DNA from: Flavobacterium faecale
GTDB lineage: Bacteria > Bacteroidota > Bacteroidia > Flavobacteriales > Flavobacteriaceae
NCBI RefSeq assembly: GCF_003076455.1
Contig: NZ_CP020918.1
Location: forward strand, 1,984,001-2,048,000
DNA length: 64,000 nt
Direction: 5' to 3'
Positions within the stretch are counted from its first letter, which is position 1. Each line of letters opens with the position of its first letter. Made by a program: the position numbers and the translations under genes. Positions 1,820 through 58,134 of the stretch are shown here, piece after piece. The notes under the pieces are model-generated. The model was not told the DNA's origin. It was given only the letters and a program-made list of their open reading frames with translations, and made no database searches.

Positions 1820-3958
1820 TTAGGCTGGAATTTCTTTGACTTTTTCACTTCTATCCCAGTTACGGTGTTGTTTTATTGCGTTGATAAAAGCATCTGGTTT
1901 TTCGTCAATCAATACTGCCGCATCATCTTTGAATTTTGCTAGATATGTTTTATCGATTAATGCATTGTCTTTTCCGTCCACGGCAATTGCTTTACAGTGT
2001 TTTAAGGCTTCGTTAATAAATTTTAAAAACTTAGCTTCACCCATAAGCTCGTTTACAGACTCTTTTCCACCAGGAATATACACAGCATCAAACAAAACAC
2101 TTTCGGTAGTCATTATGGCAGCATCTACTTTGTGCTTCATGCCTGCGTCGCAAGTGACCATTCCTCCATGAGGCGCGACCAAGTTCAAAACGGCACCTTC
2201 TTTTTCTAATGCATCTGCCATTGCTTTATAATTTTTCATCGAAAAACCGTTGGCAACCAAGACCGCAATTTTTCGAGAAACAATACTGTCAAATTTAGTA
2301 TTGGCTTGACTTAAGGTTGGTGCGCTGTCTAGATAGTTTTTCTTTTTTGGTGGTTGTTGCTCCTCTATATTTGCATCGGCTCCAATGGCTTGATTGATAG
2401 GTCGCTCAATGTCTGACGGAATTTCAAGTCCAAGACCTTTTGCTACTTTTTTTGCTAAATCTTCATCGATTTCGGCAATTAACCATAACATGCGCTCTTT
2501 TATGTGATCATGATTACATTTACCCAATTCAAAGGTGTACGCATCTGCTACGTGTTGTTGCTCCCATTTGGCTAAGCTTCTATAAAAAAGGGCTGGTTGC
2601 GAGAAGTGATCGTTAAAGCTAGCGCTTCTTGTTCTTATTTTTTTTGCATCAATGCGTTCTTCATAAGAGTGGAATCCACCTTCGGCCATTTTAGCTAAAT
2701 GTGGGCATCCTCCGCTTAAACTATTAGGGAAATAAGCAGTTTGACCTTTGTTAATTTCGGTTTGCATCATTCCGTCGCGTTGGTTATTGTGTGATTCAAC
2801 AACAGGACGATTGATCGGAATTTGGTTAAAATTTGGTCCACCTAGTCGTGACAACTGCGTGTCGCGGTAGGAGAATAGTCTACCTTGAAGCAAAGGATCA
2901 TTGGTAAAATCAATTCCGGGAACAATATGACCTGGCAAAAATGCAACTTGCTCTGTCTCTGCAAAGAAGTTTTCTGGATTTTTATTCAGTGTCATTTTTC
3001 CGATAATTTTTACCGGAACCATTTCTTCTGGAATTAATTTGGTAGGATCCAATAAGTCGAATTCGAACTTGAACTCGTCTTCTTGCGGAATAATTTGTAC
3101 ACCCAATTCCCATTCTGGAAACTGACCTGCATCAATGGCATCCCATAAATCTCGACGATGAAAGTCGGCATCGGCACCATTTATTTTTACGGCCTCATCC
3201 CATGTAAGAGAGTGAACCCCTAATTTTGGTTTCCAATGGAAACGTACAAAATGAGATTCGTTTTTGTCATTAATTAAACGGAAGGTATGAATACCAAATC
3301 CTTCCATCATTCTAAAACTACGCGGAATCGCACGGTCACTCATCACCCAAATGTGGTTATGGAGCGTTTCTGTGGTGTGCGAAACAAAATCGTAAAATGT
3401 ATCGTGGGCTGATGCAGCTTGCGGAATTTCTTTGTTTGGTTCTGGTTTGACAGAGTGAATCAGGTCGGGGAATTTTATAGCATCTTGGATAAAAAAGATA
3501 GGCATGTTGTTTCCAACCAAATCCCAAGTTCCTTCTTGGGTATAAAATTTCACAGCAAATCCTCGCACATCACGTGCAAGATCTGGTGAACCTTTTGATC
3601 CTGCTACGGTAGAAAATCGAACAAATACTGGAGTTGTTCTCTTCACATCGGTAAAAATTCCAGCTTTACTATATTGTTCTATACTTTCATAAAGTTCAAA
3701 AACGCCATGTGCTGCGCTTCCTCTAGCATGCACAATACGCTCAGGTATGCGCTCGTGGTCAAAACTGGTGATTTTTTCACGCAATAAAAAGTCTTCTAAA
3801 AGGGTAGAGCCTCTTTCTCCAGATTTCAGAGAATTGTTGGTGTCATTAACTTTCAATCCTTGATTGGTGGTCATCACTTTGCCAGTGCTGTCTTTTTCAG
3901 AAGCTTTTAGAGCCTCTGTCTTTGCAGATCCTAGATTTTCTTTTTTATTCGTAGCCAT
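1820..3958 (-). CDS. katE: large-subunit catalase (HPII type) with DJ-1/PfpI-like C-terminal domain
   Basis: Breaks down hydrogen peroxide to water and oxygen with a heme cofactor in the cytoplasm. The 712-residue length fits the large-subunit clade rather than the roughly 480-residue small clade. Visible motifs are the distal His in RIVHARGSAAHG (His77), the Asn in DLVGNNMPIFF and the proximal heme-ligand Tyr in RLFSYRDTQ. From about residue 565 the chain forms a flavodoxin-like DJ-1/PfpI-type domain (KIAVLVANGFSMKNY; VYIPGGKES), typical of KatE and of uncertain function. The first 45 residues are a polar extension. An AraC-type regulator gene lies 83 bp upstream on the same strand and may control it. 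Confidence 0.95.
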   Translation of the reverse strand: MATNKKENLGSAKTEALKASEKDSTGKVMTTNQGLKVNDTNNSLKSGERGSTLLEDFLLREKITSFDHERIPERIVHARGSAAHGVFELYESIEQYSKAGIFTDVKRTTPVFVRFSTVAGSKGSPDLARDVRGFAVKFYTQEGTWDLVGNNMPIFFIQDAIKFPDLIHSVKPEPNKEIPQAASAHDTFYDFVSHTTETLHNHIWVMSDRAIPRSFRMMEGFGIHTFRLINDKNESHFVRFHWKPKLGVHSLTWDEAVKINGADADFHRRDLWDAIDAGQFPEWELGVQIIPQEDEFKFEFDLLDPTKLIPEEMVPVKIIGKMTLNKNPENFFAETEQVAFLPGHIVPGIDFTNDPLLQGRLFSYRDTQLSRLGGPNFNQIPINRPVVESHNNQRDGMMQTEINKGQTAYFPNSLSGGCPHLAKMAEGGFHSYEERIDAKKIRTRSASFNDHFSQPALFYRSLAKWEQQHVADAYTFELGKCNHDHIKERMLWLIAEIDEDLAKKVAKGLGLEIPSDIERPINQAIGADANIEEQQPPKKKNYLDSAPTLSQANTKFDSIVSRKIAVLVANGFSMKNYKAMADALEKEGAVLNLVAPHGGMVTCDAGMKHKVDAAIMTTESVLFDAVYIPGGKESVNELMGEAKFLKFINEALKHCKAIAVDGKDNALIDKTYLAKFKDDAAVLIDEKPDAFINAIKQHRNWDRSEKVKEIPA

Positions 3959-8143: not shown

Positions 8144-8980
8144 ATGATTAATTTTAATGGAACGATACTGGCTGATGAGGCCAATATACTAACAACCAAC
8201 CGTGGTTTTTTGTATGGTGATGCGGTTTTTGAAACTGTAAAAGTAGTAAGAGGATCTATTCTTTTTTTAGAAGATCATTATTTTAGATTGATGGCTTCTA
8301 TGCGCGTCGTGCGTATGGAGATTCCGATGAACTTTACAATGGAGTATTTTGAGGAGCAATTACTAATGGTAGCAACTGCCGACGGTTGCTCAGCATCTGC
8401 TAGGGTACGCATAACGGTTTGTAGAAACGATGGTGGGTACTATTTGCCAACCACAAACGAAGTATCTTTCCTTATACACGCTAGCGCACTCGATCAGCAG
8501 TTGTATTCACTACCTACGGCGGACTATGAAGTAGATCTATTCAAAGATTTCTATATCACCAAGCAATTGTTGTCTTCGATAAAAACGACGAACAGGATGC
8601 TCAATACGACCGCAAGTATATATGCCCATGAAAACGGACTTGATAACTGCCTATTGTTAAATGATAGTAAGAATGTGGTGGAAGCAATTCAGGGAAATAT
8701 TTTTATGCGAATAGGAAATAAACTGATTACGCCACCAGTTGCAGAGGGTTGTTTGAATGGTGTTATGCGCAAGCAGATAATTGCCATTGCAAAAAAAACA
8801 GCTATAATCGAGTTTGTAGAAGAGGTAATATCTCCCTTTGATCTTCAAAAAGCAGATGAGTTGTTTATAACCAATGTAATCAAGGGGATTCAGCCAATAA
8901 CCAAATACAGAAAGAAAAATTTCAATACGGAGACGGCGGAACTTTTAATCGAAAAGTTAAACGATCAAATAAATTCGTAA
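8144..8980 (+). CDS. class IV PLP-dependent aminotransferase
   Basis: A 278-residue fold-type IV aminotransferase of the family that includes branched-chain aminotransferase, D-alanine aminotransferase and aminodeoxychorismate lyase. It acts in the cytoplasm with pyridoxal phosphate. The N-terminus has the typical RGFLYGDAVFET, the probable PLP Lys is in SIKTTNRMLN (about residue 147), and the segment VVEAIQGNIF is the cofactor-binding loop. The length is nearer to PabC or Dat than to IlvE (about 300-350). Substrate choice cannot be made from the sequence. Confidence 0.85.
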   Translation: MINFNGTILADEANILTTNRGFLYGDAVFETVKVVRGSILFLEDHYFRLMASMRVVRMEIPMNFTMEYFEEQLLMVATADGCSASARVRITVCRNDGGYYLPTTNEVSFLIHASALDQQLYSLPTADYEVDLFKDFYITKQLLSSIKTTNRMLNTTASIYAHENGLDNCLLLNDSKNVVEAIQGNIFMRIGNKLITPPVAEGCLNGVMRKQIIAIAKKTAIIEFVEEVISPFDLQKADELFITNVIKGIQPITKYRKKNFNTETAELLIEKLNDQINS

Positions 8981-9000
8981 TTAATTTACATAGAATAGTA

Positions 9001-9045
9001 AAAAAGAGGAGGCGCAGTAAAAACTGTAGTTCTCCTTTTTTTTAT
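9001..9045 (+). terminator. probable terminator after the aminotransferase gene
   Basis: AAAAAGAGGAG and TCTCCTTTTTTTT form an imperfect stem followed by a T-run, just beyond the aminotransferase stop and before the convergent yqgE-like gene. Confidence 0.55.
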
Positions 9046-9062
9046 GTTCTAGATTTATGGTA

Positions 9063-9623
9063 TTAGTTTAAATACGGATTCTCTGGAGCATTGGACCAAA
9101 TGAGGTAATCACCGCCAAGCTCTTTAATTTGGTCTTTCCAGAAATGAGTAGGGGACTTACCAATAATTTTGTTTTTGTAAATGTTGGTCGTTACTATCCA
9201 AGAGTTAGCATGCATCTCTGTTTCCAATTGATTGTCTCTCCATCCTGAATACCCCAAGAAAAAACGAATATTATTTTTGTTAATAATACCCTCGTTAATT
9301 AATTCTTTGGCAGATTCAAAGTCACCACCCCAATATATTCCGTTTGAAATTTCTACACTATTAGGTATTAATTCCGGAACATTGTGGATAAAATATAAAT
9401 TGTCTTGCTCAACAGGACCACCATTATAGATTCTAAATTTAGAATCAATTTCGGGTACAAGGTCGTGTATGGTATACTTTAAAGGTTTATTGATGATAAA
9501 TCCTACTGATCCTTCTTTGTCATGATCTGCTAATAAAATCACAGATCTGTTGAATGATACATCTCCAATTATAGAAGGCTCAGATATAAGTAGTTGTCCT
9601 TTTATTAATTTTTCTGAAGTCAT
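9063..9623 (-). CDS. YqgE/AlgH family protein (UPF0301)
   Basis: A 186-residue protein with the family N-terminus KGQLLISEPSIIGDVSFNRS, the segment GSVGFIINKPL and the GGPVEQDNLYFIH motif. AlgH was first linked to alginate regulation in Pseudomonas, but the biochemical role of the family is unknown. It is cytoplasmic, with no signal peptide. The HU gene lies downstream on the same strand, but with a terminator-bearing 120-bp gap between them the two probably have separate transcripts. Confidence 0.92.
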   Translation of the reverse strand: MTSEKLIKGQLLISEPSIIGDVSFNRSVILLADHDKEGSVGFIINKPLKYTIHDLVPEIDSKFRIYNGGPVEQDNLYFIHNVPELIPNSVEISNGIYWGGDFESAKELINEGIINKNNIRFFLGYSGWRDNQLETEMHANSWIVTTNIYKNKIIGKSPTHFWKDQIKELGGDYLIWSNAPENPYLN

Positions 9624-9692
9624 AATGCTGTAATTTTTTATTAAATTTAAGAAAAAAAATAAAAAAAAACCAAATTTAGCAATAAAATTAAA

Positions 9693-9723
9693 TAAAAAAA
9701 CCCTCCGATAGGAAGGTTTTGTT
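9693..9723 (-). terminator. terminator between HU and yqgE-like genes
   Basis: AAAACCCTCC and GGAAGGTTTT with a GATA loop form a stem flanked by A and T runs, so it could work in both directions. It lies just beyond the HU stop. Confidence 0.6.
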
Positions 9724-9744
9724 TCTATAAAGCAAAACTGTTAA

Positions 9745-10017
9745 TTAGTTTACTGCTCCTTCTAGTTCTGCTCCAGCTTTGAATTTCACAACATTTTTAG
9801 CAGCAATTTGGATAGTTTTTCCTGTTTGAGGATTTCTACCATCTCTTGCAGCTCTTGCAGATACAGACCATGATCCAAAACCTACTAGAGATACTTTACC
9901 TCCTTTTTTTAACGTATCACCTACGTTACCTAAAAATGATTCTAAAGCTAATTTTGCAGCTGCTTTAGTGATTCCTGCGTCTGCAGCGATAGCATCGATT
10001 AATTCTGACTTGTTCAT
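9745..10017 (-). CDS. HU family DNA-binding protein
   Basis: A 90-residue nucleoid protein that binds and bends DNA as a dimer. The N-terminal helices (MNKSELIDAIAADAGITKAA) and the beta-arm signature (GFGSWSVSARAARDGRNPQTG with PQTG at the arm) are complete, and the length is the family standard. The family Pro at the arm tip that intercalates into DNA is seen in NPQTG. It is a single gene with its own terminator. Confidence 0.96.
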   Translation of the reverse strand: MNKSELIDAIAADAGITKAAAKLALESFLGNVGDTLKKGGKVSLVGFGSWSVSARAARDGRNPQTGKTIQIAAKNVVKFKAGAELEGAVN

Positions 10018-10192
10018 AATGTAAAGTTATTAATGTTGGTTAAAGATTTCTTACTATACAAATTTAGCAGGAAATCCCTAGCATGCAAGCGTTTTCAATT
10101 ATTTCGACCTGATTTGTTGATAACTTAGTTTTTTTGTTGATAAATAAGGCTCGTTTTATTGGGATTCACGTAACGTCCAATGTTTTTGGGGG

Positions 10193-11140
10193 TTAAAAAG
10201 CTTTTGCCTCGCTCGTAAAACTTATTCCGTTCAATAATTCGGCAGTTTTCATTCTTTTCTTGCCAGGAAACTGAAGACTTATGATTTCAATAAATCCGTC
10301 CTCTACTGCAACCTTCATTTCTTTCTTGGTGCATAAGATTGTTCCTACAGCATTTTCATGCTCTTCTGTAACAATTTTAGATTCGTAGATTTTTACATTC
10401 CACTCTTCATTTTTGTCTGCTATCGTAGTCCATGCGGCAGGGTATGGGCTCAATCCGCGTATGTGATCGTGTATGGCGGTTGCCTTTTTTGTCCAGTCAA
10501 TTTTGCAATTGTCCTTGTTTAATTTATAAGCCGTTTTAATTTCGGCAGTTTCGGTTTGAATCGTCGTTTGTACATCGCCTTTTTCAATGATGGCCAAAGT
10601 TTCTACCACAGTTGTGCTACCTAGGTGCATTAAGCGATCGTGCAAGTCGCCTGCAGACTCATTAGGATCAATTGCTGTTTCATGGTTCAAAATCATCGCA
10701 CCGGTATCAATTTTATCATCGATAAAAAAGGTGGTTACGCCTGTTTTTGCTTCACCATTAATTATAGCCCAGTTAATAGGAGCGGCACCACGGTAATTTG
10801 GTAGGAGAGAAGCATGCAGGTTGAAGGTTCCTAGTGATGGCATTTCCCAAACCACTTTCGGTAACATTCTAAACGCTACAACTATTTGCAAATTGGCATT
10901 CAATGCTTTTAATTCGGCAAGAAAGTCTTCATCTTTTAAATTAGTAGGTTGCAATAGCGGTAAATTATTGGCAAGTGCATAGTCTTTTACGGCTGAATAT
11001 TTTATTTTTTGTCCGCGACCAGCTGGCTTGTCGGCAGCTGTGATCACGCCTACCACGGTATAGTTGTTCTGAATAATAGTATCAAGGATTCCTACTGCAA
11101 ATTCGGGAGTTCCCATGAAAACAATTCGTAATTTTTCCAT
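10193..11140 (-). CDS. fmt: methionyl-tRNA formyltransferase
   Basis: Formylates the initiator methionyl-tRNA using 10-formyl-tetrahydrofolate. The 315-residue length is normal. The N-terminal catalytic domain shows FMGTPEFAVG and the folate-site signature SLLPNYRGAAPINWAI, with the catalytic Asn/His/Asp set spread around FNLHASLLP and DDKIDTG. The C-terminal tRNA-binding OB-fold follows from about residue 205. The start ATG overlaps the recQ stop by one base (TAATG), indicating translational coupling in the ATPase-recQ-fmt operon. Confidence 0.97.
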   Translation of the reverse strand: MEKLRIVFMGTPEFAVGILDTIIQNNYTVVGVITAADKPAGRGQKIKYSAVKDYALANNLPLLQPTNLKDEDFLAELKALNANLQIVVAFRMLPKVVWEMPSLGTFNLHASLLPNYRGAAPINWAIINGEAKTGVTTFFIDDKIDTGAMILNHETAIDPNESAGDLHDRLMHLGSTTVVETLAIIEKGDVQTTIQTETAEIKTAYKLNKDNCKIDWTKKATAIHDHIRGLSPYPAAWTTIADKNEEWNVKIYESKIVTEEHENAVGTILCTKKEMKVAVEDGFIEIISLQFPGKKRMKTAELLNGISFTSEAKAF

Positions 11141-13035
11141 TATAATTTTAAGGTATAGGTATTGTTGGGTTGTATACTGATAGTTTCGTTGGCAAGTAAT
11201 TCTTGCAGTGCAAAGATAAGCGCGTCTGGGCTTGTATTTATTTTATTTTGTATTTCTCTTGAATTCAACGGTTCTCCTTTTAATAGCAGCATAATTTGTT
11301 GCTGTAGTACCTTTAGGTCTTTACCTTTCGGTTTTAGAGTAATGCAATAGGAGCAAATACCGCAATTTTCGGACTCCTTTTCTCCAAAATACGATAAGAT
11401 CAATTTGCTTTTACATGTTGACTCTTCCTTTATATAATGCAATACAGAGGCTAATTGTTCTTTTTTTAGTGTATTTTGCTTCTCAAGATACTTTGCGACA
11501 CGGCTAATAGTGCGTTCATCTTCTCGAATTTCATTAAAAGTGATTGCGGCATCATTATTTTTCGAATGAAAATCAATGACTTGTTTCTCGTGTAATTTTT
11601 CGAGCACAGCATAGACTTGTTTTTCTGTTCGTTGGGATTTTTTAGCAATTAAGGAACAGTTGAAAGCGGTCTCTATTTCGTAAACCCCAGGATAGGTGCG
11701 TACGATTGCTAAAATAATCTCTTCGTCGTTGGGATTTAAACTAAGGTAACGCAGCACTTCTTTGGATGAAATAATAAACTGTAAACTTATTTTTTGCGAA
11801 GATTCTTGTGCTAATGTTAAGATGCCTTGTTGGTCTAGAAACTGAATAGCATTGAAGGTGCGAAGAACGGGAAAATTATATTTGACACAAAAGTGATTGA
11901 GGTTGAAGCTGAATTTTTCATCAATTCCTTCGCCATAAGCAATTTGAAAATAGGTATTCAGTTTTCGGTAAATAAGATTTAGATACGCTTTGTCGGGCAG
12001 GTTTTTTATAAACTGATTTTCAGCATTTATCGCATCTGATGGACTGGTAAGTAAAACAGCAAATGCTTTTTCTTCATTTCGTCCAGCTCTTCCAGCTTCT
12101 TGGTAATAATTTTCCATGTTTTCAGGCAACTGGATATGGATTACGGTTTTTACATTCGCCTTGTCAATTCCCATTCCAAATGCATTTGTGGCCACAATTA
12201 CTTGTGCTTTTTCTTCCATCCACAAGGCCATGTTTTTGTCTTTTTCTTTCGATTTAAGTCCTCCGTGGTAGTAAGTCGCCTTAAAACCTAAGGATTGTAA
12301 TTGCGAGGAGATTTCTAAACAAGATTTTCTATTTCGAACATAAATAATAGAAGGTTGTGGATTTTTCTTTAAAATTTGTTGAATTTTAAAAAGTTTATCC
12401 TCAGCCTCAAATACCATGTAGGCAATATTTTTTCGAGCAAAAGACTGTTGAAAGAGAACTGGGTTTTCAAGTCCTAGTTCGGAAATGATATCCTCTTTTA
12501 CACGTGAGGTAGCAGAGGCCGTTAAAGCCAAAAAGGGTACTGTTGGAAAGTGATCCTTTAAATCGGATATTTTTAAATAAGCAGGTCGAAAGTCATGACC
12601 CCATTGAGAAACGCAATGAGCTTCGTCGATGGCGATCAAATTGATGTCTAGTGTTTTAATGCGTTCCAAAATCCAGTCCGATTGAAGCCGTTCTGGAGAT
12701 AGGTATAAAAATTTATAATTTCCGTATTGGCAATTATCCAATAAATTGATTAGTTCTTCAGAGTGGATACCGCCTGTAAGTGCAATGGCCTTGATGTTGC
12801 GGCTTTGCAAATTGGCAACCTGATCCTTCATCAAAGCAACTAATGGTGAAACGACAAGACAAATCCCTTTCGATAATAACGCTGGTACTTGAAAGCAAAT
12901 GGATTTTCCTCCACCCGTAGGCAACAGGGCAAAGGTATCCTTGCCACTCAAAACAGAATCAATAATATCGTTTTGGAGCGGTCTGAAACTATCGTGTTTC
13001 CAGTATTTTTTGAGGATTTCTAAGGCTTCAGACAT
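11140..13035 (-). CDS. recQ: RecQ-family ATP-dependent DNA helicase
   Basis: Unwinds DNA 3' to 5' in recombination and repair. Motifs in order: Q-motif region FRPLQNDIIDSVL, Walker A ALLPTGGGKSICFQ, DEAH box LIAIDEAHCVSQWGHDFRP, motif III TASATSRV, and motifs V-VI ATNAFGMGIDKANVK and QEAGRAGRNEEKA. The four zinc-binding Cys are at CKSKLILSYFGE and CGICSYC. There is no clear HRDC domain at the 631-residue C-terminus, as in the shorter RecQ forms common in Bacteroidota. It starts 14 bp after the ATPase gene and overlaps fmt by one base. Confidence 0.95.
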   Translation of the reverse strand: MSEALEILKKYWKHDSFRPLQNDIIDSVLSGKDTFALLPTGGGKSICFQVPALLSKGICLVVSPLVALMKDQVANLQSRNIKAIALTGGIHSEELINLLDNCQYGNYKFLYLSPERLQSDWILERIKTLDINLIAIDEAHCVSQWGHDFRPAYLKISDLKDHFPTVPFLALTASATSRVKEDIISELGLENPVLFQQSFARKNIAYMVFEAEDKLFKIQQILKKNPQPSIIYVRNRKSCLEISSQLQSLGFKATYYHGGLKSKEKDKNMALWMEEKAQVIVATNAFGMGIDKANVKTVIHIQLPENMENYYQEAGRAGRNEEKAFAVLLTSPSDAINAENQFIKNLPDKAYLNLIYRKLNTYFQIAYGEGIDEKFSFNLNHFCVKYNFPVLRTFNAIQFLDQQGILTLAQESSQKISLQFIISSKEVLRYLSLNPNDEEIILAIVRTYPGVYEIETAFNCSLIAKKSQRTEKQVYAVLEKLHEKQVIDFHSKNNDAAITFNEIREDERTISRVAKYLEKQNTLKKEQLASVLHYIKEESTCKSKLILSYFGEKESENCGICSYCITLKPKGKDLKVLQQQIMLLLKGEPLNSREIQNKINTSPDALIFALQELLANETISIQPNNTYTLKL

Positions 13036-14121: not shown

Positions 14122-14838
14122 ATGAATTCAAAATACCAAAAAGAAAATGCAAATGATGTTGTACACCACTTGGAGTACAATGCCGAAAGAACGCATTTAA
14201 TTATACCAGAGTACGGTCGTCATTTACAAAAACTGATCGATCAAGCTACGGCGATAGAGAGCGCAGAAGAACGCAACAAAGCGGCAAAGTATATCATTCA
14301 AGTAATGGGAACTTTAAATCCGCATTTGCGTGATGTGCTTGACTTTCAGCACAAATTATGGGACCAATTGTTTATTATGTCTGATTTTAAATTGGATGTA
14401 GAATCACCTTATCCTATTCCGTCAAGAGAGGTTTTGCAGTTGCGTCCAGATATTTTGGAATATCCTCAAAATTATCCAAAATACAGGTATTATGGTAACA
14501 ATATCAAGTACATGATTGATGTTGCTAATAAATGGGAAGAAGGAGATATGAAAAGTGCTTTGGTGAAAGTTATTGCCAACCACATGAAAAAATCATATTT
14601 GAGTTGGAACAAAGATACTGTGAAGGATGATGTGATTTTTGAACATCTATATGAGTTATCTGGCGGAACATTGAATTTGATTCAAAGTGATGAAGAGTTG
14701 TTGAACACAACCGATTTGCTACGCACGAACAAAAGAGTGTCAAATAAAATTAATACAAGTACGCAACCTAAGATTCAAACCAATAAAAAGAATCAAAACA
14801 GCAAACGACCGTATACCAAAAACAACAACCAAAAATAG
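14122..14838 (+). CDS. DUF4290 domain-containing protein
   Basis: A 238-residue soluble protein of a family restricted to Bacteroidota. The N-terminal signature is LEYNAERTHLIIPEYGRHLQ. The last 45 residues are basic and Asn/Lys-rich (a run of KKNQNSKRPYTKNNNQK), typical of a disordered nucleic-acid- or membrane-binding tail. Function unknown. It lies 71 bp before murA in the same direction, an arrangement suggesting a link to envelope growth, though that is only contextual. Confidence 0.85.
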   Translation: MNSKYQKENANDVVHHLEYNAERTHLIIPEYGRHLQKLIDQATAIESAEERNKAAKYIIQVMGTLNPHLRDVLDFQHKLWDQLFIMSDFKLDVESPYPIPSREVLQLRPDILEYPQNYPKYRYYGNNIKYMIDVANKWEEGDMKSALVKVIANHMKKSYLSWNKDTVKDDVIFEHLYELSGGTLNLIQSDEELLNTTDLLRTNKRVSNKINTSTQPKIQTNKKNQNSKRPYTKNNNQK

Positions 14839-50413: not shown

Positions 50414-51130
50414 TTACAATCCATTCGTAACACCCAAGAGGACTCCAATTTTGATCCTTTTTTCTAATGAATCATCTTGCAGTGTACTATGGCAAAGACT
50501 TGCGCCCCTAGTAATTTTACTAAGCGAATATTTTATAATATCATTTACTTCAAAATTTGTGAATGTGTGCATGCCATTGGAGATACACAATATAGCGTTT
50601 CCAAAATTCGTATTGTAACTTTTCAATGAATAAGGAAAATTAAAGATAGGAGTAATGGCATCCATTGCGGTATCGTGATTTGATACAAAATTTGTTCTCA
50701 GTAGGGCAATAGTACAATTTTTGAATAATGTTTTAAAATTTTCAAAATCAAAACTAGTATTGCGATACTGTGCAATAGAATCATCATGGTATAAGATTTC
50801 ATTGAAACCAATATCTGAAAACGTAGCTTCAGTGCTCATTAGAATGAGTGACTCGAATTGACTTTTACTATTTTCTATTTCAGCAAGAAACAATGCTTCA
50901 GGATTTATGAGGTCAAAATGTTCGGGAACAACCAAACATCCTAAATTCAAACTTTCCTGATTATTGAAAATCCGAATTAAAAATACTTTATCCGTAGCAT
51001 GCTCAATAATAAGGTGCGAGTCTATGGCATCAGCAGGGATCAAATTGCTATCGATTAATGTACGTTGCTCCCATTTTTCTTGCACTTTTTTAAAAGCTTC
51101 TAATCTTGTTTGATCCATTCTATTTTGCAT
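50414..51130 (-). CDS. FtsZ C-terminal-subdomain protein 2 (no GTPase domain)
   Basis: A 238-residue protein. Residues about 127-235 resemble the end of FtsZ: a T7-like loop FDFENFKTLF (FtsZ has VDFADVKT), then a segment matching the C-terminal subdomain with TNFEVNDIIKYSLSKITRGA and a final RIKIGVLLGVTNGL, the place of FtsZ RVTVIATG. The GGGTGTG GTP-binding motif is absent, and the N-terminal 120 residues are unrelated and unknown. In the T7-like loop the second Asp needed for GTP hydrolysis in FtsZ is Asn131. It is the last gene of the LRR-FtsZC1-FtsZC2 cassette, 35 bp after FtsZC1. No signal peptide or TM segment. Confidence 0.75.
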   Translation of the reverse strand: MQNRMDQTRLEAFKKVQEKWEQRTLIDSNLIPADAIDSHLIIEHATDKVFLIRIFNNQESLNLGCLVVPEHFDLINPEALFLAEIENSKSQFESLILMSTEATFSDIGFNEILYHDDSIAQYRNTSFDFENFKTLFKNCTIALLRTNFVSNHDTAMDAITPIFNFPYSLKSYNTNFGNAILCISNGMHTFTNFEVNDIIKYSLSKITRGASLCHSTLQDDSLEKRIKIGVLLGVTNGL

Positions 51131-51165: not shown

Positions 51166-51627
51166 CTATCGAATTTTCAAGTTTGCTGCTGTCATCACTG
51201 TAATTGCAATAGCATCACCGAGATTATCGTCTTCGCTTAGCATCATTACAATATGGGCATCTAATCCCGACTTTTCTTGAATATAGTCGTTGATAACTCC
51301 AACTTCATCAATGCTTATTTTGGTGGAATAGGAAGATATAAATAAAAAAATATTCTTACTGAGATTCACTAAAAGTGGTAAAAGTGCCAATTCAATTGCT
51401 TTTGTAGCTCTATCATTTCCTGAAGCAATGGCGAAACCAATAAAAACAGTTTTTAGAGTTTGCCTGTTGTCATTTGAAGCAAGTTTTTCTTTGTTGTTTG
51501 CGAATCTTGTCTGTACGAGAGATTTGTGCATTTTAAAAAAATCTTCTTCGAAATTACATTCGGGATTGATTTCTAGAGTCATTGTAACGGAAAAATAATT
51601 GCTGGTCTGCTGGTAGTTTTTGTTCAT
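51166..51627 (-). CDS. FtsZ C-terminal-subdomain protein 1 (no GTPase domain)
   Basis: A 153-residue protein. Residues 60-150 follow the C-terminal subdomain of Bacteroidota FtsZ closely: FIGFAIASGNDRATKAIELAL matches the FtsZ GxASGxxRAxxAI helix, ISIDEVGVINDYIQEKSG matches ITIDEIGEINDHIQ, and DDNLGDAIAITVM matches the final LGxAIAVTI strand. The tubulin GTP-binding domain is entirely missing, and the first 58 residues are short and not recognisable. It lies between the LRR gene (111 bp upstream) and FtsZC2. It likely binds FtsZ or a partner rather than forming filaments alone. Inferred role: a regulator or capper of FtsZ. Confidence 0.8.
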   Translation of the reverse strand: MNKNYQQTSNYFSVTMTLEINPECNFEEDFFKMHKSLVQTRFANNKEKLASNDNRQTLKTVFIGFAIASGNDRATKAIELALLPLLVNLSKNIFLFISSYSTKISIDEVGVINDYIQEKSGLDAHIVMMLSEDDNLGDAIAITVMTAANLKIR

Positions 51628-51738: not shown

Positions 51739-52731
51739 TTAAATAAAATTCTCTAAAGAATTAGGCCAGTTACTTATTTGGAATTTCAGTTTTTGGTTTA
51801 TTTGCGGATTATCTATTTTAATGCTCTGAATTTTGTCACAAATGATTATCAAATTCGCTAATTTTTTATTTATTTTTATTTTGTTGGTTTGAGTGAGATA
51901 GAGATCACATAGAAGTAAATGCTCATTAAGAACAAGCTTTTGGACAGGAGTTTCGGAGATACGTAATTCTTGTAAACCATCATTCAAGTTTAGTGTTGCT
52001 ATTGAAGTCTCTCTTAATTCTAATGACTTTAGATTTTCGTTGAAATTGATGTGATCTAAATCTTGCATCGAAAAACAAGCGGATTCAATATTTTTGCTTA
52101 GCACAATTGATTGTATCCCATTAGGTAAACATATTTCCTCTAAGTAGAATTGACCCTCATTACCATTGGATCCATCATACAGAAAAAGTCTCTTCGACTG
52201 TTGCTCTTTAAACTTGGAAAGGGCATTACTATCTTCAAAAATATGATTCTTGGTTCTAGATAAATATATTTCGTTTAACTGGTTGTGAAACGTAATCTGA
52301 TTAGTTAGTTTTGGGTTTTGAGATTGTACCTCACAAAGAGTATTGTGCTCTTGTATTAATTTTTCGATCTCATTAAAATCGAGAACATGTAGCCGTGAGC
52401 TTTGAATAATTTTCCATTCAGTGGCTGAGAATTGCTCTTGCTTTGCGGTGCTATTCAAGTCTAATGTCAAAGTATAACTTTTAGGACAATAACCCATTCT
52501 GGCCAGTTCTAAATCGTTTAATTTTTCATCATCTTCAAAGGTGAAATCTTTAATTCCTAGATTTAGTTTTTCTAGATTATTGATTATTTTGGATTTGAAA
52601 AACACACGGATTTCTAATTGATTTGTGTTTATTGATTTATAAAAGAGAACATTACATCCAAAGTAAATTTCTTTATCTGATTGCTGAATCTCATAACTTT
52701 TGTTGTTAGAGAACTTAAAGACGGTTTCCAT
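51739..52731 (-). CDS. leucine-rich-repeat-like protein, first gene of the FtsZ-domain cassette
   Basis: A 330-residue soluble protein without signal peptide. The N-terminal 140 residues have no recognisable domain. From about residue 195 a set of irregular leucine-rich-repeat-like units occurs (LKSLELRETSIATLNLNDG; LQELRISETPVQKLVLNEH), each about 20-22 residues. LRR arrays bind proteins. It is 111 bp upstream of the first FtsZ-domain gene on the same strand and probably shares its transcript. Function unknown. Confidence 0.65.
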   Translation of the reverse strand: METVFKFSNNKSYEIQQSDKEIYFGCNVLFYKSINTNQLEIRVFFKSKIINNLEKLNLGIKDFTFEDDEKLNDLELARMGYCPKSYTLTLDLNSTAKQEQFSATEWKIIQSSRLHVLDFNEIEKLIQEHNTLCEVQSQNPKLTNQITFHNQLNEIYLSRTKNHIFEDSNALSKFKEQQSKRLFLYDGSNGNEGQFYLEEICLPNGIQSIVLSKNIESACFSMQDLDHINFNENLKSLELRETSIATLNLNDGLQELRISETPVQKLVLNEHLLLCDLYLTQTNKIKINKKLANLIIICDKIQSIKIDNPQINQKLKFQISNWPNSLENFI

Positions 52732-52805: not shown

Positions 52806-53432
52806 TTAAAGTTCCAAAATAATTGGAGCATTTACCAACTGATAATTGAGGTTTACCGAAGAAGCATTGACAAAAATAGTTTTGTCTTTTTCAACCATTC
52901 CATAGCCTTCGTGTATGTGACCAAAAACGTGTAGTTTTGGTTTGATTTGATCTACTTTTTTTAATAACATTTCGCAACCTGCATTATAATTGGAATTGGT
53001 TCGGTCTAAAATGCCAAAAGGTGGTCCATGAGTGATTAGTATGTCGGTGTCTTCTGGAATTAGTTTCCAATGCTTATTAATTTCTGCTCCTTTTTGGCGA
53101 TTGAAAGCCCAATCTAAAAAAGTGGGCTGAACGGGTGATCCCCATATTTTCAGCCCCTCAATTTCTACTCCTGAATCATTCAGATAATGAATCTTTTTCG
53201 GGATTATTTTGTCGATATACGTTTTGTCCTGTTTTTCAAAAAACCAATCGTGGTTTCCCGCTATGAAAATTTTATGTTTGTACGGCTGCTCTCCAAACCA
53301 TTTTAAAAATGCTAAAACCTCTCCCTCCGTACCATGACCGCACAAATCACCTGCGTGAATAAGCATATCGCCCCCTTGCAAATGTAATTGGTTGTGAAGG
53401 AAATGGGTATCGGAGATTAGGGTTATGTTCAT
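52806..53432 (-). CDS. metallophosphoesterase
   Basis: A 208-residue cytoplasmic calcineurin-like phosphoesterase. The metal-binding motifs are all present: DTHFLHNQL, HAGDLCGHG, GNHDWFFEK, LITHGPPFG and FGHIHEGYG. The substrate is unknown. Members of this group act on phosphodiesters, sometimes cyclic nucleotides. It lies 74 bp before the LRR gene on the same strand, so it might belong to the same transcript, but its standard form suggests an independent role. Confidence 0.9.
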   Translation of the reverse strand: MNITLISDTHFLHNQLHLQGGDMLIHAGDLCGHGTEGEVLAFLKWFGEQPYKHKIFIAGNHDWFFEKQDKTYIDKIIPKKIHYLNDSGVEIEGLKIWGSPVQPTFLDWAFNRQKGAEINKHWKLIPEDTDILITHGPPFGILDRTNSNYNAGCEMLLKKVDQIKPKLHVFGHIHEGYGMVEKDKTIFVNASSVNLNYQLVNAPIILEL

Positions 53433-53538: not shown

Positions 53539-55335
53539 CTAATTTTCATCTGTTACATAATTGTCAATTAAAATATCAATTTCTGTTTTGTGTTTATTTA
53601 TTTGTTCAGTTTCCCATTTGTCATTCTCATAGCTTTCAAACATTATTAGTCGTTTCAAGCTTGAATTATCTGGTTTTGGATGTATAAAGCGTTTCTTTTT
53701 ATCGCTTGGGTTTTCTTTGTTGCCTGCGGAATTTTGTGAAGCAGAAATTAAACACAAATTTCCAATGCCGTTCAATTCATCTAAAGGAATACTTGCTGAA
53801 CTTGGATTACTTTGTGCTGCAAGATGTTCTTTAGAATTGAGTTGTTTGAATTTAAAATTATTGAATTCATTTTTAAACTTGTCAATTTTACTTTTTAATG
53901 ATTTCAAATTTTCGTTTACTTCTTCAGTCTTATAAAGTTTCCAGAGCAAAAAATCAATAAAATAAAGATTGAAAATACTAACTGTTGGATATGATAAGTT
54001 GAACCTATTAAATTTAATTTTGACAATGTCCCAAACTTTCTCTGTGTATTTACAAACTTCAAAATCCGTATTTTTCAAAATTTCTTGCAACCAATTATTG
54101 TATGTGTTTGTTGAATCTGAATAATACAGCATTACTTGAAGTTTTGTCAATTCTTCATCAGTTTCAAAAGTTTTAATTGTTGTTTCAAAATCGGTGTTTA
54201 ACTTTCTTATCCCCCAATTTTGTTTGCTTTCATCAGCGTCTGCTAAGTCTTGTTTTATTATAAATTTGTCAAACAAACTTCTATATTTCAATAAATCAAA
54301 AATAAACTCTTTCGGGTCAGGTTTGAAGTCGCTAAATTGCTCTAAAAGTTTTTTATCGTCAAGTGAGACTTTATCGTTTTTAATTTTCAAGACTTGTAAT
54401 AGATAATTGGGAAAATCAATAACGGATTTGTATTTGTCTTTGATGAATTTTTCTTCTTTTGGAAAGTCGGTTGGAATGTTATATTCTGTAATAATTTTTA
54501 ATAAGGATAATTCTTCGCTTTTATCCCCATTTTCATTTATACAAATTTCTTCAAAGTTTTTTCCGATAAGTTCGCTTTCGTTAGTAAAAAGTTTAACTCT
54601 GCTTTGCTTGTCAATATTTAAAAACACGTAATTGTTCATATCGGCACAAGCGTCCCAAATTTTAGCAAACTTTTCTTGTTCTATTCTTTCAATTTGTTTG
54701 TTATCGTCTATTATTTTTCCCAATAAAAGTGCTTTTACGATTTCGTGTTTTTCTAACTGCTCACCACGATTATTCATTATTTCAAAATAATGGTTCAAAT
54801 CAGTGTCTTCTGGAACTTCCACACGAAATAGATAAACATTATTGTAGAAATTGCTTGCAAATCCTTCAATCTCTTTTATGCTTCTTAATTCTTCTTGAAT
54901 TATCTCAATGGCATCTTTGAAACTTCCTGTACCCGAAATGTTTAATTCGCCAATTTGCGTTTGAAAGTTGTCTGCTTTGTATAAATTTTCAATGTAATTC
55001 TGTACTTTCTTGCGAGAATCAAACTTAAGATTTGGAACTGAAACAGTATTTGGAATATTTTTCGCCCAATTTTTCAAAACAAGATTTATCAGTATAATGG
55101 TTGTGTGGCGTTGTTGTCCGTCAATCAATTCAAAATTGCCATCTTCTCGTTTGAAGCAAACTAAAGAGCCAAGATAATATGATTTTTTTTCACTGTTTCC
55201 CTTTGGAAAAAACTCATCAATATCCTTGATTAACTGTGAAATTTCAGCTTTCCCCCAAGCGTAATTTCTTTGGTAGCGAGGAATGATATAATTGTCATTT
55301 GCTAAAATCTCTTTTATGTTTTTTGCGCTATTCAT
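53539..55335 (-). CDS. DUF262-DUF1524 protein (GmrSD/SspE-type nuclease)
   Basis: A 598-residue protein. The N-terminal DUF262 domain shows YIIPRYQRNYAWGKAE and the ELIDGQQRHTTI motif (DGQQR, a nucleotide-binding/hydrolysis site). A helical middle follows. Near residue 500-560 the DUF1524 HNH-like motif appears as SKEHLAAQ ... GIGNLCLIS ... NSAGNKENPSDKK, the nuclease half of GmrSD and SspE. It therefore looks like a single-chain modification-dependent or phosphorothioation-linked restriction enzyme. Its ATG overlaps by 8 nt the stop of a 118-codon ORF. Together with the second DUF262 gene and a WYL regulator it forms a probable defence module. Confidence 0.9.
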   Translation of the reverse strand: MNSAKNIKEILANDNYIIPRYQRNYAWGKAEISQLIKDIDEFFPKGNSEKKSYYLGSLVCFKREDGNFELIDGQQRHTTIILINLVLKNWAKNIPNTVSVPNLKFDSRKKVQNYIENLYKADNFQTQIGELNISGTGSFKDAIEIIQEELRSIKEIEGFASNFYNNVYLFRVEVPEDTDLNHYFEIMNNRGEQLEKHEIVKALLLGKIIDDNKQIERIEQEKFAKIWDACADMNNYVFLNIDKQSRVKLFTNESELIGKNFEEICINENGDKSEELSLLKIITEYNIPTDFPKEEKFIKDKYKSVIDFPNYLLQVLKIKNDKVSLDDKKLLEQFSDFKPDPKEFIFDLLKYRSLFDKFIIKQDLADADESKQNWGIRKLNTDFETTIKTFETDEELTKLQVMLYYSDSTNTYNNWLQEILKNTDFEVCKYTEKVWDIVKIKFNRFNLSYPTVSIFNLYFIDFLLWKLYKTEEVNENLKSLKSKIDKFKNEFNNFKFKQLNSKEHLAAQSNPSSASIPLDELNGIGNLCLISASQNSAGNKENPSDKKKRFIHPKPDNSSLKRLIMFESYENDKWETEQINKHKTEIDILIDNYVTDEN

Positions 55336-55684: not shown

Positions 55685-57052
55685 TTATTCAAACTCGAAC
55701 CCTCTAAGAAAATCTGCAATTTTGTCAATTCCTTTTACCCTGTCATTTTCAATTTGGTATGTTTTATACTGATAATTTTTGAAATTATCAGGACTGATAG
55801 AATCATTAATTTTGCTAAAAAGTTGTCGTGCGGAACTATTCATAATTGTTTCTACGGCAATTCGTTTTTTATTGCAGCGAATTTCATAGGCAAGTTTGTA
55901 GAATGCTTTGTAGAAATTTTCAAAATCATCAATATAACCAAATTTATCAATGAAGGTCATTAGAATATTTTCATAAATATTCCTCACTTTTTCATCTCCA
56001 CTGCGCCCCCAACCATTATAACCGTAGCAATAAGCTTTGTAAAACGTAACAAATTCGGGTACTTCTGCCTTTATAGCATCTTTTATATTCAAATCAAATA
56101 ATTTTTCCCGTTGGTGAATGTAAAAATCAACGTATTCAAAAAAACGTTTACCGTTAATTATTGGCATTGTGATTTGAAATGGAAAAGCTTGTGCAACTTG
56201 TAAGTTTTGCAAAAATTTATCGTTTTGAGCATTATCTACAAAGCCGTCCAGCATTCGAATTGCATTTTCGTATGGATATTTTTGTTTTTGCTGCAACGAA
56301 ATACCTTTAAATTCTTCAATTTCATCTTTGGTGAAATCGTATTTCCATTCATTTTTACTCCATTTACGAATTTTGAAAAGATGATTTCCAAGTATAGGTT
56401 TTAAAGTTCCATTATCAACAGATGTTTCCCAACAGTCAACGCATTTTGTTCTGTCTTCTTCGCTATCAAAATCCATTTCTCGTAAATGAAATGCTTTTAG
56501 TAAGTCATAAGGTTCAAGGGCTTTACCTCTTGCATTTTGTGAATCAAAAAGCTGAAATGCTTCGTCTTGACGAAAAACTTTAAAAAGTACAAACTCGCAT
56601 TTATCCAAGATTTTTGTTTTGAAATCTGATTTTTTGTTTTCATTATTTCTAAATTTTGTGCATATCCATTGATTTATAATGCGATAATTATACACAATAT
56701 TGTTTTTTGAAATATTGTGTTTAAATTTTTCATTTAGCAACAAACCATCAAAATTAGTTTCTAACACCTTTAAAATTAGTGATATAGTTGTGAGCCGCTG
56801 TTGGCCGTCAACAATATAATTGGTTGTATTCTCGCTATTAATTGCATTCTCGCTGTGTAAAATGATATTTCCAATTCTGTAATCCTTGTTTTTGATAATA
56901 ACATACTCAAAAATATCTTCTAAAAGCTGAATTATGTTTTTTTCAGTCCATTTATAAGGACGTTGATAAATGGGAATGATGAGTTTTTCTTTTACTAATT
57001 TATTCAGTTTAATTAGATTTTGTGTTGGTTCTCTTGTGTATTCTATTTCCAT
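55685..57052 (-). CDS. DUF262 protein, partner of the GmrSD-like nuclease
   Basis: A 455-residue protein. The DUF262 signature is seen as IIPIYQRPYKWTEKNIIQLL and VDGQQRLTTISLIL, with a further ARGKALEPYDLLKAF segment usual in the family. No DUF1524 nuclease motif is present, so this is the sensor or ATPase-like half. It ends with FLRGFEFE and TAA, then runs on in the same frame for 118 codons. Its promoter must lie in the 182-bp gap after the WYL regulator, where a pair of similar AT-rich words may be operator sites. Confidence 0.88.
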   Translation of the reverse strand: MEIEYTREPTQNLIKLNKLVKEKLIIPIYQRPYKWTEKNIIQLLEDIFEYVIIKNKDYRIGNIILHSENAINSENTTNYIVDGQQRLTTISLILKVLETNFDGLLLNEKFKHNISKNNIVYNYRIINQWICTKFRNNENKKSDFKTKILDKCEFVLFKVFRQDEAFQLFDSQNARGKALEPYDLLKAFHLREMDFDSEEDRTKCVDCWETSVDNGTLKPILGNHLFKIRKWSKNEWKYDFTKDEIEEFKGISLQQKQKYPYENAIRMLDGFVDNAQNDKFLQNLQVAQAFPFQITMPIINGKRFFEYVDFYIHQREKLFDLNIKDAIKAEVPEFVTFYKAYCYGYNGWGRSGDEKVRNIYENILMTFIDKFGYIDDFENFYKAFYKLAYEIRCNKKRIAVETIMNSSARQLFSKINDSISPDNFKNYQYKTYQIENDRVKGIDKIADFLRGFEFE

Positions 57053-57234: not shown

Positions 57235-58134
57235 TTATTGATATAATTTTGTCATTTCTGCAATCTTGTTTTTTACTTTTATTTGTAAAGAGATAGGTGT
57301 GACAACTTTTACTTCTGCACCCAGTTTTAGAATCTCCATAATAATGTCATGGGTAGGATGTATAAAAATTTCTAACAAAACACTTTGTTCATTTTCTTCC
57401 AAAATATGTTGGGAGTCGTGCAATGGAAAACTTTTTGCGTAGTTCCCTTGTACTTTTGTAAATTCTAACACAATTTTTGTGGCAGGTTCATACGTTTCAA
57501 CTCCAAAAGCGTCTTTAAATTCTTTTTCAACATTATAAGGAATGGGTTTGAACGTGGTATCTGTAATAGTTAAATTTGAAATTCGATCCATTCCAAAAGT
57601 TTTAATTACGTCATCTTTTTTGTCAAGAGCAACCAAATACCATCGCTGTTGCGATTCTTTGAGAGCAATAGGCTTTACGATGCGCTGGGTTGTGAAGTCT
57701 TCCCAATGCTTCTGGTGGTTAAATTTTAAAATGAAATTGTTTTGGATGGCGTGGATGATGCCGTGAATATGCTCTGTTCCTAACGATTTTCGTTTTTCTA
57801 AGAATACGCTTGGTGATAATTTGTCACCTTCTTGCAAAGCATGATGAATAGAAAACGCATCAATCATACGCGTTACCGATTGGTCTTCGATTTCGTCTTC
57901 GTCAATAAAATAGGTTTTGTCTTTTCGATCGTATTGAATTACAATTCCGAAAAGTGCTTCTATGTCTTTTTTGTCCCGCTCAAAAGTTCTAATGGCGTAC
58001 TCAAAATCAGTATCAACTTCGTCTTTTTGGAGTTTGTCAATCACATATTTTTGTAAACTGGCAAAGCTCGAAGGACGACTCCTTAAACGGTCTACAACAT
58101 ACAAATACCTTTTGAAATAGATTAATTTTGACAT
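57235..58134 (-). CDS. WYL-domain transcriptional regulator
   Basis: A 299-residue protein. The N-terminal 65 residues resemble a winged helix-turn-helix (LRSRPSSFASLQKYVIDKLQ), the central WYL domain contains QQRWYLVALD at about 167-176, and a C-terminal WCX-like extension follows. WYL regulators often control phage-defence islands such as BREX and CBASS. It is the first gene of the minus-strand group with the two DUF262 genes, so it may repress that module. The start at 58134 (MSKLIYFKRYLYVVDR) is the only fitting Met. Confidence 0.87.
   Translation of the reverse strand: MSKLIYFKRYLYVVDRLRSRPSSFASLQKYVIDKLQKDEVDTDFEYAIRTFERDKKDIEALFGIVIQYDRKDKTYFIDEDEIEDQSVTRMIDAFSIHHALQEGDKLSPSVFLEKRKSLGTEHIHGIIHAIQNNFILKFNHQKHWEDFTTQRIVKPIALKESQQRWYLVALDKKDDVIKTFGMDRISNLTITDTTFKPIPYNVEKEFKDAFGVETYEPATKIVLEFTKVQGNYAKSFPLHDSQHILEENEQSVLLEIFIHPTHDIIMEILKLGAEVKVVTPISLQIKVKNKIAEMTKLYQ

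Follow-up and report, generated by a model that had tools for sequence, protein, structure and literature searches.

FtsZ-derived genes in WYL-headed islands of Flavobacterium: a family of candidate immune components

A minus-strand gene of 153 codons at positions 51166-51627 of a 64,000-nucleotide stretch of the Flavobacterium faecale genome (contig NZ_CP020918.1; the whole stretch is called the window below) encodes a C-terminal domain of the division protein FtsZ standing alone. Comparison of this gene with its relatives in other genomes shows that it is one branch of a family of FtsZ-derived genes, which descend from an ftsZ of Flavobacterium and are maintained in islands with a gene for a WYL-domain regulator at their head. 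The island in the window is itself of a known kind, and it is the FtsZ- and DnaA-derived members for which no precedent was found. We propose, at slightly short of an even chance, that such mimics of cell-cycle proteins (one-faced FtsZ, in some cases with a DnaA ATPase domain) constitute an immune module, in which the WYL regulator would command arrest of division and replication or the mimics would act as bait that senses takeover by a phage. This suggests that bacteria may have made immune components out of fragments of their own division machinery.

Results

The open reading frame (ORF) of the 153-amino-acid (aa) protein is intact and starts with ATG, and the plus-strand frame over the same positions is riddled with stops. 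The initial annotation, made from the DNA letters, described a small gene for an FtsZ C-terminal subdomain with no GTP-binding domain, and this description was upheld. The Pfam family FtsZ_C (PF12327) matched residues 62-146 with an E value of 2.7e-5 and 24.8 bits, formally just below its curated cut-off of 27; the whole-FtsZ model TIGR00065 gave a weak match (E 0.0068); and profile comparison of the nine-member family of this protein with FtsZ gave 99.7% probability (E 3.7e-26, 43% identity over 94 columns). The AlphaFold2 model has a mean predicted local distance difference test (pLDDT) score of 63.4 and is usable for residues of about 60-150 only, with ten-residue block means of 73-85 over residues 61-150 and of about 35-48 before residue 60, so that residues 1-58 are of uncertain structure. 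When this model was compared with the PDB by Foldseek, the check that the initial annotation had proposed, 108 matches were obtained at E <= 0.001 and the 50 best listed were all FtsZ entries (top E 1.9e-7). Hidden Markov model, profile comparison and structure search agree on the C-terminal domain fold. The description of the protein as a close copy was generous, as 39 of 81 aligned residues, over four segments, equal those of the host FtsZ. Pfam and alignment to the host FtsZ both place the GTP-binding domain, with its T1 and T4 (GGGTGTG) loops, among the absent parts, and the protein stops after the FtsZ_C domain with neither linker nor C-terminal tail. Elsewhere in the host genome, a single contig of 4.62 Mb, lies a normal, intact ftsZ of 652 aa; together with the existence of full-length 153-aa orthologues, this rules out a chance ORF or a frameshifted copy of the host gene.

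The next gene, on the same strand and 35 bp downstream, encodes a protein of 238 aa which, on profile evidence, is best described as a more eroded FtsZ copy that has no GTP-binding loops and retains part of the FtsZ N-terminal domain after them. Profile comparison with FtsZ gave 95.0% probability (E 3.6e-8), columns 58-232 aligning after the GTP-binding loops; TIGR00065 matched with E 0.028 and Pfam gave no match. The sequence IPADAID stands at the aligned place of the T4 loop and FDFEN at that of the T7 loop, where the first Asp is kept and the second lost. The AlphaFold model is poor (mean pLDDT 55) and its input alignment held real FtsZ rows, so its matches to FtsZ structures are weak support and the profile comparison is the better evidence. 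The suggestion that the lone domain lies next to a second one was accordingly right as to an FtsZ-derived neighbour and wrong as to a second lone C-terminal domain. The order of the pair is kept at the same site in three genomes, those of F. faecale, Flavobacterium sp. 7A and F. ovatum, with gaps of 35, 37 and 32 bp, and in all three the first gene has 153 codons at 58-81% identity.

A protein search with the 153-aa sequence returned nine matches including the window's own, those named coming from Flavobacterium sp. 7A (81% identity), F. ovatum (58%) and Flavobacterium sp. 7E (55%); the 238-aa sequence returned four, one of them itself. A second match besides ordinary FtsZ was found at E <= 1e-6 in 12 of 398 Flavobacterium genomes, a lower bound, with at most nine candidates per genome scored. 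A thirteenth genome, that of strain 7A (G384; loci L055 and L096), came from other searches. The architectures encountered are given in Table 1; genome G263 holds only a decayed FtsZ-derived fragment with four stops. An order-wide search of 393 genomes relied on a flawed alignment (A5), which includes a sequence with a DnaA-like first part (P0025) and yielded a 255-position model spanning gap columns; second matches were common in it and were left uncounted. When 13 genomes were re-searched with PF12327, a lone C-terminal domain of the window's kind was found only in strain 7A. A scan of the genome_contigs collection gave 24 loci, with L055 as the sole near relative by identity and the rest, not each checked, looking like ordinary ftsZ. 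One 205-aa open frame from a 350-contig genome of the same order (L079) lies beside another ftsZ and matches FtsZ_C with 128 bits; it may reflect contamination or a contig edge. Origin from a phage gene is disfavoured: none of 246 pattern-matching stretches in viral_contigs encodes a relative of the 153-aa protein, and a phage collection of 50,697 records gave two weak partial matches (30-33% identity, no annotation), the one inspected being an unverified faecal scaffold.

One architecture joins a DnaA ATPase domain to FtsZ, a striking chimera of replication-initiation and division proteins. Each of the ten database clusters in which it recurs (P0015-P0024; 553-573 aa, 84-92% identity to the query) has the DnaA ATPase, tubulin and FtsZ_C domains according to Pfam; their source names include 'cell division GTPase FtsZ/DNA replication protein DnaC' for two and 'DnaA ATPase domain-containing protein' for one. 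PF08299 and PF11638, present on nearly all complete DnaA matches, are on none of the ten. The QRLLSRF of ordinary DnaA, which we take to be the arginine-finger site, reads PQLLSRF in three aligned fusions and is retained in the separate DnaA-like protein of L053. A short second WYL-like ORF lies beside the split DnaA-FtsZ gene of L049.

In other genomes the C-terminal domain follows an unrelated N-terminal domain, giving proteins of 318-324 aa. The idea that this N-terminal domain is itself eroded FtsZ found no support (hhalign probability 0.1%). Its relatives occur in 21 of 299 Flavobacterium genomes (E <= 0.01), three being the fusions themselves and several having internal stops; where it was found alone, a WYL gene lay nearby in five of the six loci fetched (L126, L127 and L129-L131, not L128). 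Copies of about 130-165 aa are fused to FtsZ_C in three genomes and alone elsewhere, and the one copy searched had no Pfam match. A protein of about 187-193 aa also recurs in the islands, its L046 copy likewise matching nothing in Pfam.

In a tree of 51 C-terminal domains, built from 94 columns, which are few for that many rows, 16 of 18 island rows form one clade (support 100/99) among the FtsZ proteins of Flavobacterium, and the two 238/242-aa rows sit elsewhere on a very long branch and are unplaceable. Since so many of the island domains form one clade within the FtsZ of the genus, the tree fits a single recruitment, after which the GTPase side was probably lost. All FtsZ-derived ORFs but one retain the C-terminal domain, and helix H10 is recognisable in every C-terminal domain, although much changed in the 238/242-aa copies and in L054. 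The long C-terminal tail is missing from all island copies. The T4 loop is missing or altered relative to host FtsZ in all island rows but L052, including those of all ten fusion clusters; the ordinary FtsZ rows were picked for GGGTGTG and therefore give no independent control. The alignment has no T7 motif in the 153-aa and N-domain-fused proteins. Every copy with a T7 motif except L050 keeps its first Asp, and the second is replaced by N, S, I or L in L050, L051, L132, L052, L054, both 238/242-aa copies and three of ten fusion clusters (L051 and L132, shifted in the alignment, were read by eye). Loss of the second catalytic Asp is not a general rule, as L049 and seven of ten fusion clusters have both residues.

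Table 1. FtsZ-derived genes, their island neighbours and recurrent companions
Feature	Genome or locus	Position	Strand	Evidence
153-aa stand-alone FtsZ C-terminal domain	window	51166..51627	minus	Pfam near cut-off, profile, Foldseek
238-aa eroded FtsZ copy without GTP-binding loops	window	50414..51130	minus	profile comparison
330-aa protein, leucine-repeat-like	window	51739..52731	minus	weak similarity to L046 leucine-rich-repeat protein; no Pfam match
208-aa metallophosphoesterase, phage-defence candidate PDC-S10	window	52806..53432	minus	PADLOC
598-aa DUF262/GmrSD-type protein (GmrSD_N + GmrSD_C)	window	53539..55335	minus	Pfam
455-aa GmrSD_N + DUF7834 protein	window	55685..57052	minus	Pfam
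299-aa WYL-domain regulator (WYL + WCX), heads island	window	57235..58134	minus	WYL PF13280
Lone C-terminal domain + eroded FtsZ	G000, G384 (7A), G744 (F. ovatum)			
FtsZ GTPase domain alone, 235 aa, between WYL and DUF262 genes	L055 (7A)	2499-3206		Tubulin E 1.6e-23
C-terminal domain behind ~160-aa domain of no known family	G139, G146, G150			
Lone 128-aa C-terminal domain	G222, G674			
Lone 105-aa C-terminal domain	G221			
Separate 269-aa DnaA ATPase-domain protein, 1.5 kb on	G221 (L053)	2034-2843		
Tail-less FtsZ with GTPase part	G260, G080			
DnaA ATPase domain-FtsZ fusion, 554 aa	G007 (L050)	8653-10317		
DnaA-FtsZ gene split into two ORFs, 134 + 396 aa	G200 (L049)	9921-11633		
Short WYL-like ORF	G200 (L049)	8829-9491		
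205-aa frame beside another ftsZ	G540, C324 (L079)	14536-14820		FtsZ_C
~130-165-aa domain	L046; L126; L127; others	9107-9595; 9837-10256; 9787-10206		
~187-193-aa island protein	L046; L050; L052; L054; L125; L129; L132	13547-14110; 13230-13793; 10867-11430; 6020-6589; 10270-10845; 6576-7157; 11647-12213		

The window's pair lies in a defence island, as judged from the WYL gene (PF13280), the GmrSD_N and GmrSD_C domains and the PADLOC candidate PDC-S10. Conserved neighbours, which the initial annotation had named as support, were found: the pair, its WYL gene and the flanks are common to F. faecale, strain 7A and F. ovatum, and the genes between WYL and pair are exchanged (two DUF262 genes in the window, two different ones in 7A and PDC-S26-type genes in F. 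ovatum). The phosphoesterase and 330-aa genes are present in both the window and the 7A island. Across the wider set, where gene labels rest mostly on similarity to seeds or reading of the sequences and some were confirmed with Pfam or PADLOC, a WYL gene lies upstream of and co-directional with the FtsZ-derived gene in each of the 12 loci whose length allows a judgement, the thirteenth (L053) being a 4.9-kb contig. DUF262/GmrSD genes occur in 10 of the 13 loci (window, L055, L046-L052 and L132) and PDC-S26-type genes in two others (L125 and L054). A DnaQ-like exonuclease is present in eight (L046, L047, L049-L052, L054 and L132; not in the window, L055, L125 or L048), and a PDC-S10-type metallophosphoesterase in the window, L055, L046 and L132; L051 and L053 have shorter genes that resemble it. 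With an identity of at least 58% to the L046 protein as the limit, a WYL protein was found in 12 of 12 positive genomes (G221 left out) and in one of 21 other Flavobacterium genomes, which were a non-random set (G004-G032 with ten skipped); Fisher's test gave p 3.7e-8, uncorrected for kinship. With no identity limit, at E <= 1e-20, five of the 21 had one.

This setting bears on the possibility that the FtsZ fold has been re-used as a structural or regulatory assembly domain of DUF262 or PDC systems and no longer meets FtsZ. The C-terminal domain is joined to unrelated parts, namely the ~160-aa domain and the DnaA ATPase domain, and its gene is often preceded, on its own strand, by a DUF262 gene. 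It has, however, no fixed partner, the L125 pair and the L054 FtsZ-derived gene accompanying PDC-S26 rather than DUF262, and FtsZ-like residues such as those of H10 are kept in most copies; we regard such re-use as improbable.

The ratio of non-synonymous to synonymous substitution rates (dN/dS) was used to examine constraint. Between the window and 7A, the 153-aa gene has nine synonymous and 30 non-synonymous differences and a dN/dS of 0.85 (bootstrap 0.41-2.39); the values are 0.43 (0.26-0.71) for 7A and F. ovatum and 0.55 (0.34-0.97) for the window and F. ovatum. Elsewhere in the family they are 0.29-0.30 for the 238-aa gene, 0.17 (0.07-0.39) for the 128-aa pair, 0.19 for L047/L048, 0.34 for the fusion against the second ORF of L049, 0.37 for L046/L048 and 0.44 for L052/L054. 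Neighbouring genes have lower values still in most cases (phosphoesterase 0.13, 330-aa gene 0.21, WYL 0.07-0.08, flanking genes 0.02-0.10). The FtsZ-derived family is constrained, yet less so than its neighbours. Synonymous divergence between the window and F. ovatum is 0.48 for the 153-aa gene and 0.53 for WYL, lower than for the 238-aa gene (1.19) and the flanks (1.8-2.4, close to saturation); some of the island genes may therefore have been exchanged.

These figures also bear on whether the genes are decaying relics, that is, an island-borne ftsZ copy crumbling into functionless fragments. Parts have been lost stepwise, the G200 copy is split in two ORFs, the G263 fragment has its four stops, and the ratio for the window and 7A is high. 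Against this stand the uniform 153-codon length in three diverged genomes, ratios below 1 in the other comparisons (0.17-0.55) and a neutral simulation of 1000 runs, simple in that it used substitutions only and no indels, in which a frame seldom stayed stop-free (1.2% at 0.3 and 0.1% at 0.5 changes per site). We therefore give decay a low probability. Likewise, homologues are not confined to fragments of damaged ftsZ genes, given the intact host ftsZ and the full-length relatives, with the one decayed fragment in G263.

Discussion

Our current working hypothesis, held tentatively and at less than an even chance, is that one-faced mimics of FtsZ act as a brake on division under the WYL regulator. 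Phage infection or DNA damage would cause the regulator to release the island; the mimic would then bind a host FtsZ subunit by its C-domain face and, its GTP face being dead, would take no next subunit, and having no tail it would provide no tether, so that the filament would end and division would halt. In the window, the 153-aa domain and the 238-aa eroded FtsZ would act jointly. Where the DnaA-FtsZ fusion is present, initiation of replication may be halted as well, and the fusion has a dominant-negative look, because its DnaA part is the ATPase module without the DNA-binding domain. The initial annotation's suggestion that the 153-aa fragment could cap, recruit or poison FtsZ is likewise putative.

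Several observations weigh against this hypothesis. The T7 (synergy) loop is the loop that enters the GTP pocket of the partner subunit, and alignment shows no recognisable NxDxxD motif in the 153-aa protein; this counts against the simplest form of brake, simple capping, as well as against the simplest bait. The 7A island holds, besides its lone C-terminal domain and eroded FtsZ, a GTPase-only ORF with T4 altered to GGETATL, the opposite half of FtsZ, and the T4 loop of L052 is intact. Control of the island genes by the WYL regulator is putative, as deduced from position and direction, and scans for promoters and terminators gave counts close to those of shuffled sequence (43 against 35.9, standard deviation 6.1; three against 3.5). 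Finally, the 153-aa gene of the window is indistinguishable from neutral in comparison with that of 7A, and recent constraint on it is unproven.

A serious alternative, suggested by the defence-island setting, the wider family and the DnaA-FtsZ fusions, is that the mimic is bait or decoy, showing an FtsZ C-domain surface to phage division inhibitors and either soaking them up or forming a complex that activates neighbouring defence genes. We consider it rather unlikely taken singly, and nearly as likely as the brake. Apart from the setting of the FtsZ-derived genes, it draws on the fact that the part kept in the mimics is the part on which inhibitors act: MciZ acts on H10 and strand 9 of FtsZ (PMC8456036), MinC acts on H10 (PMC3618327), and phage T7 Gp0.4 is predicted to act on the C-terminal region with the synergy loop, the Gp0.4-FtsZ complex activating CapRel-Ebc (PMC13423816). 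A dN/dS above that of WYL and the flanks is what an arms race would give, although faster evolution equally fits relaxed constraint. The 153-aa protein offers no site for inhibitors that use the synergy loop, and bait alone does not explain the DnaA part. We know of no flavobacterial phage inhibitor of FtsZ, which also counts against bait. Our slight preference is for the brake, as the DnaA fusion is explained by it.

If the proposal is true, proteins of division and of replication initiation have become immune components in their own right, and the family is a natural series of FtsZ domains split to different degrees, from which one could learn the faces that matter for polymerisation and those that matter for phage inhibitors. 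It would also make it possible to ask by genetics whether bacteria under phage attack guard the divisome, mimic it or shut it down, an issue raised by the recent CapRel-FtsZ report (PMC13423816). Within the open-licence literature we found no description of FtsZ-derived genes with DnaA, WYL, GmrSD/DUF262 or defence islands, or as anti-phage decoys, although absence is thereby unproven.

The closest known protein is FtsZ itself (PF00091 + PF12327), which has the C-terminal domain fold and much sequence, including helix H10, in common with the 153-aa protein, but which possesses a GTPase domain, T7 loop, linker and tail where the latter has none, and which is encoded normally elsewhere in the genome. 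The FtsZ inhibitors SulA, MciZ, MinC, phage Kil and Gp0.4 have the same outcome as that proposed here, a block of FtsZ polymerisation or division; these bind FtsZ as peptides or as proteins of unrelated fold, whereas the 153-aa protein is a piece of FtsZ and its inhibition putative. SulA in particular halts division, the outcome proposed for the mimic, by means of a different fold. Sensing by CapRel-Ebc resembles the bait reading in that the FtsZ C-terminal region is part of what immunity detects, but CapRel-Ebc is a fused toxin-antitoxin that uses host FtsZ (PMC13423816), and no CapRel-like gene was recognised among the island genes inspected. WYL regulators are reported beside about half of the defence systems surveyed (PMC9122601). 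Defence islands regulated by WYL proteins (BrxR/CapW) and containing GmrSD enzymes share with those described here the WYL head, the DUF262/GmrSD genes and the exchangeable cargo. To our knowledge none of the islands so described has FtsZ- or DnaA-derived members, and it is in the recurrence of such members that the Flavobacterium islands differ from them.
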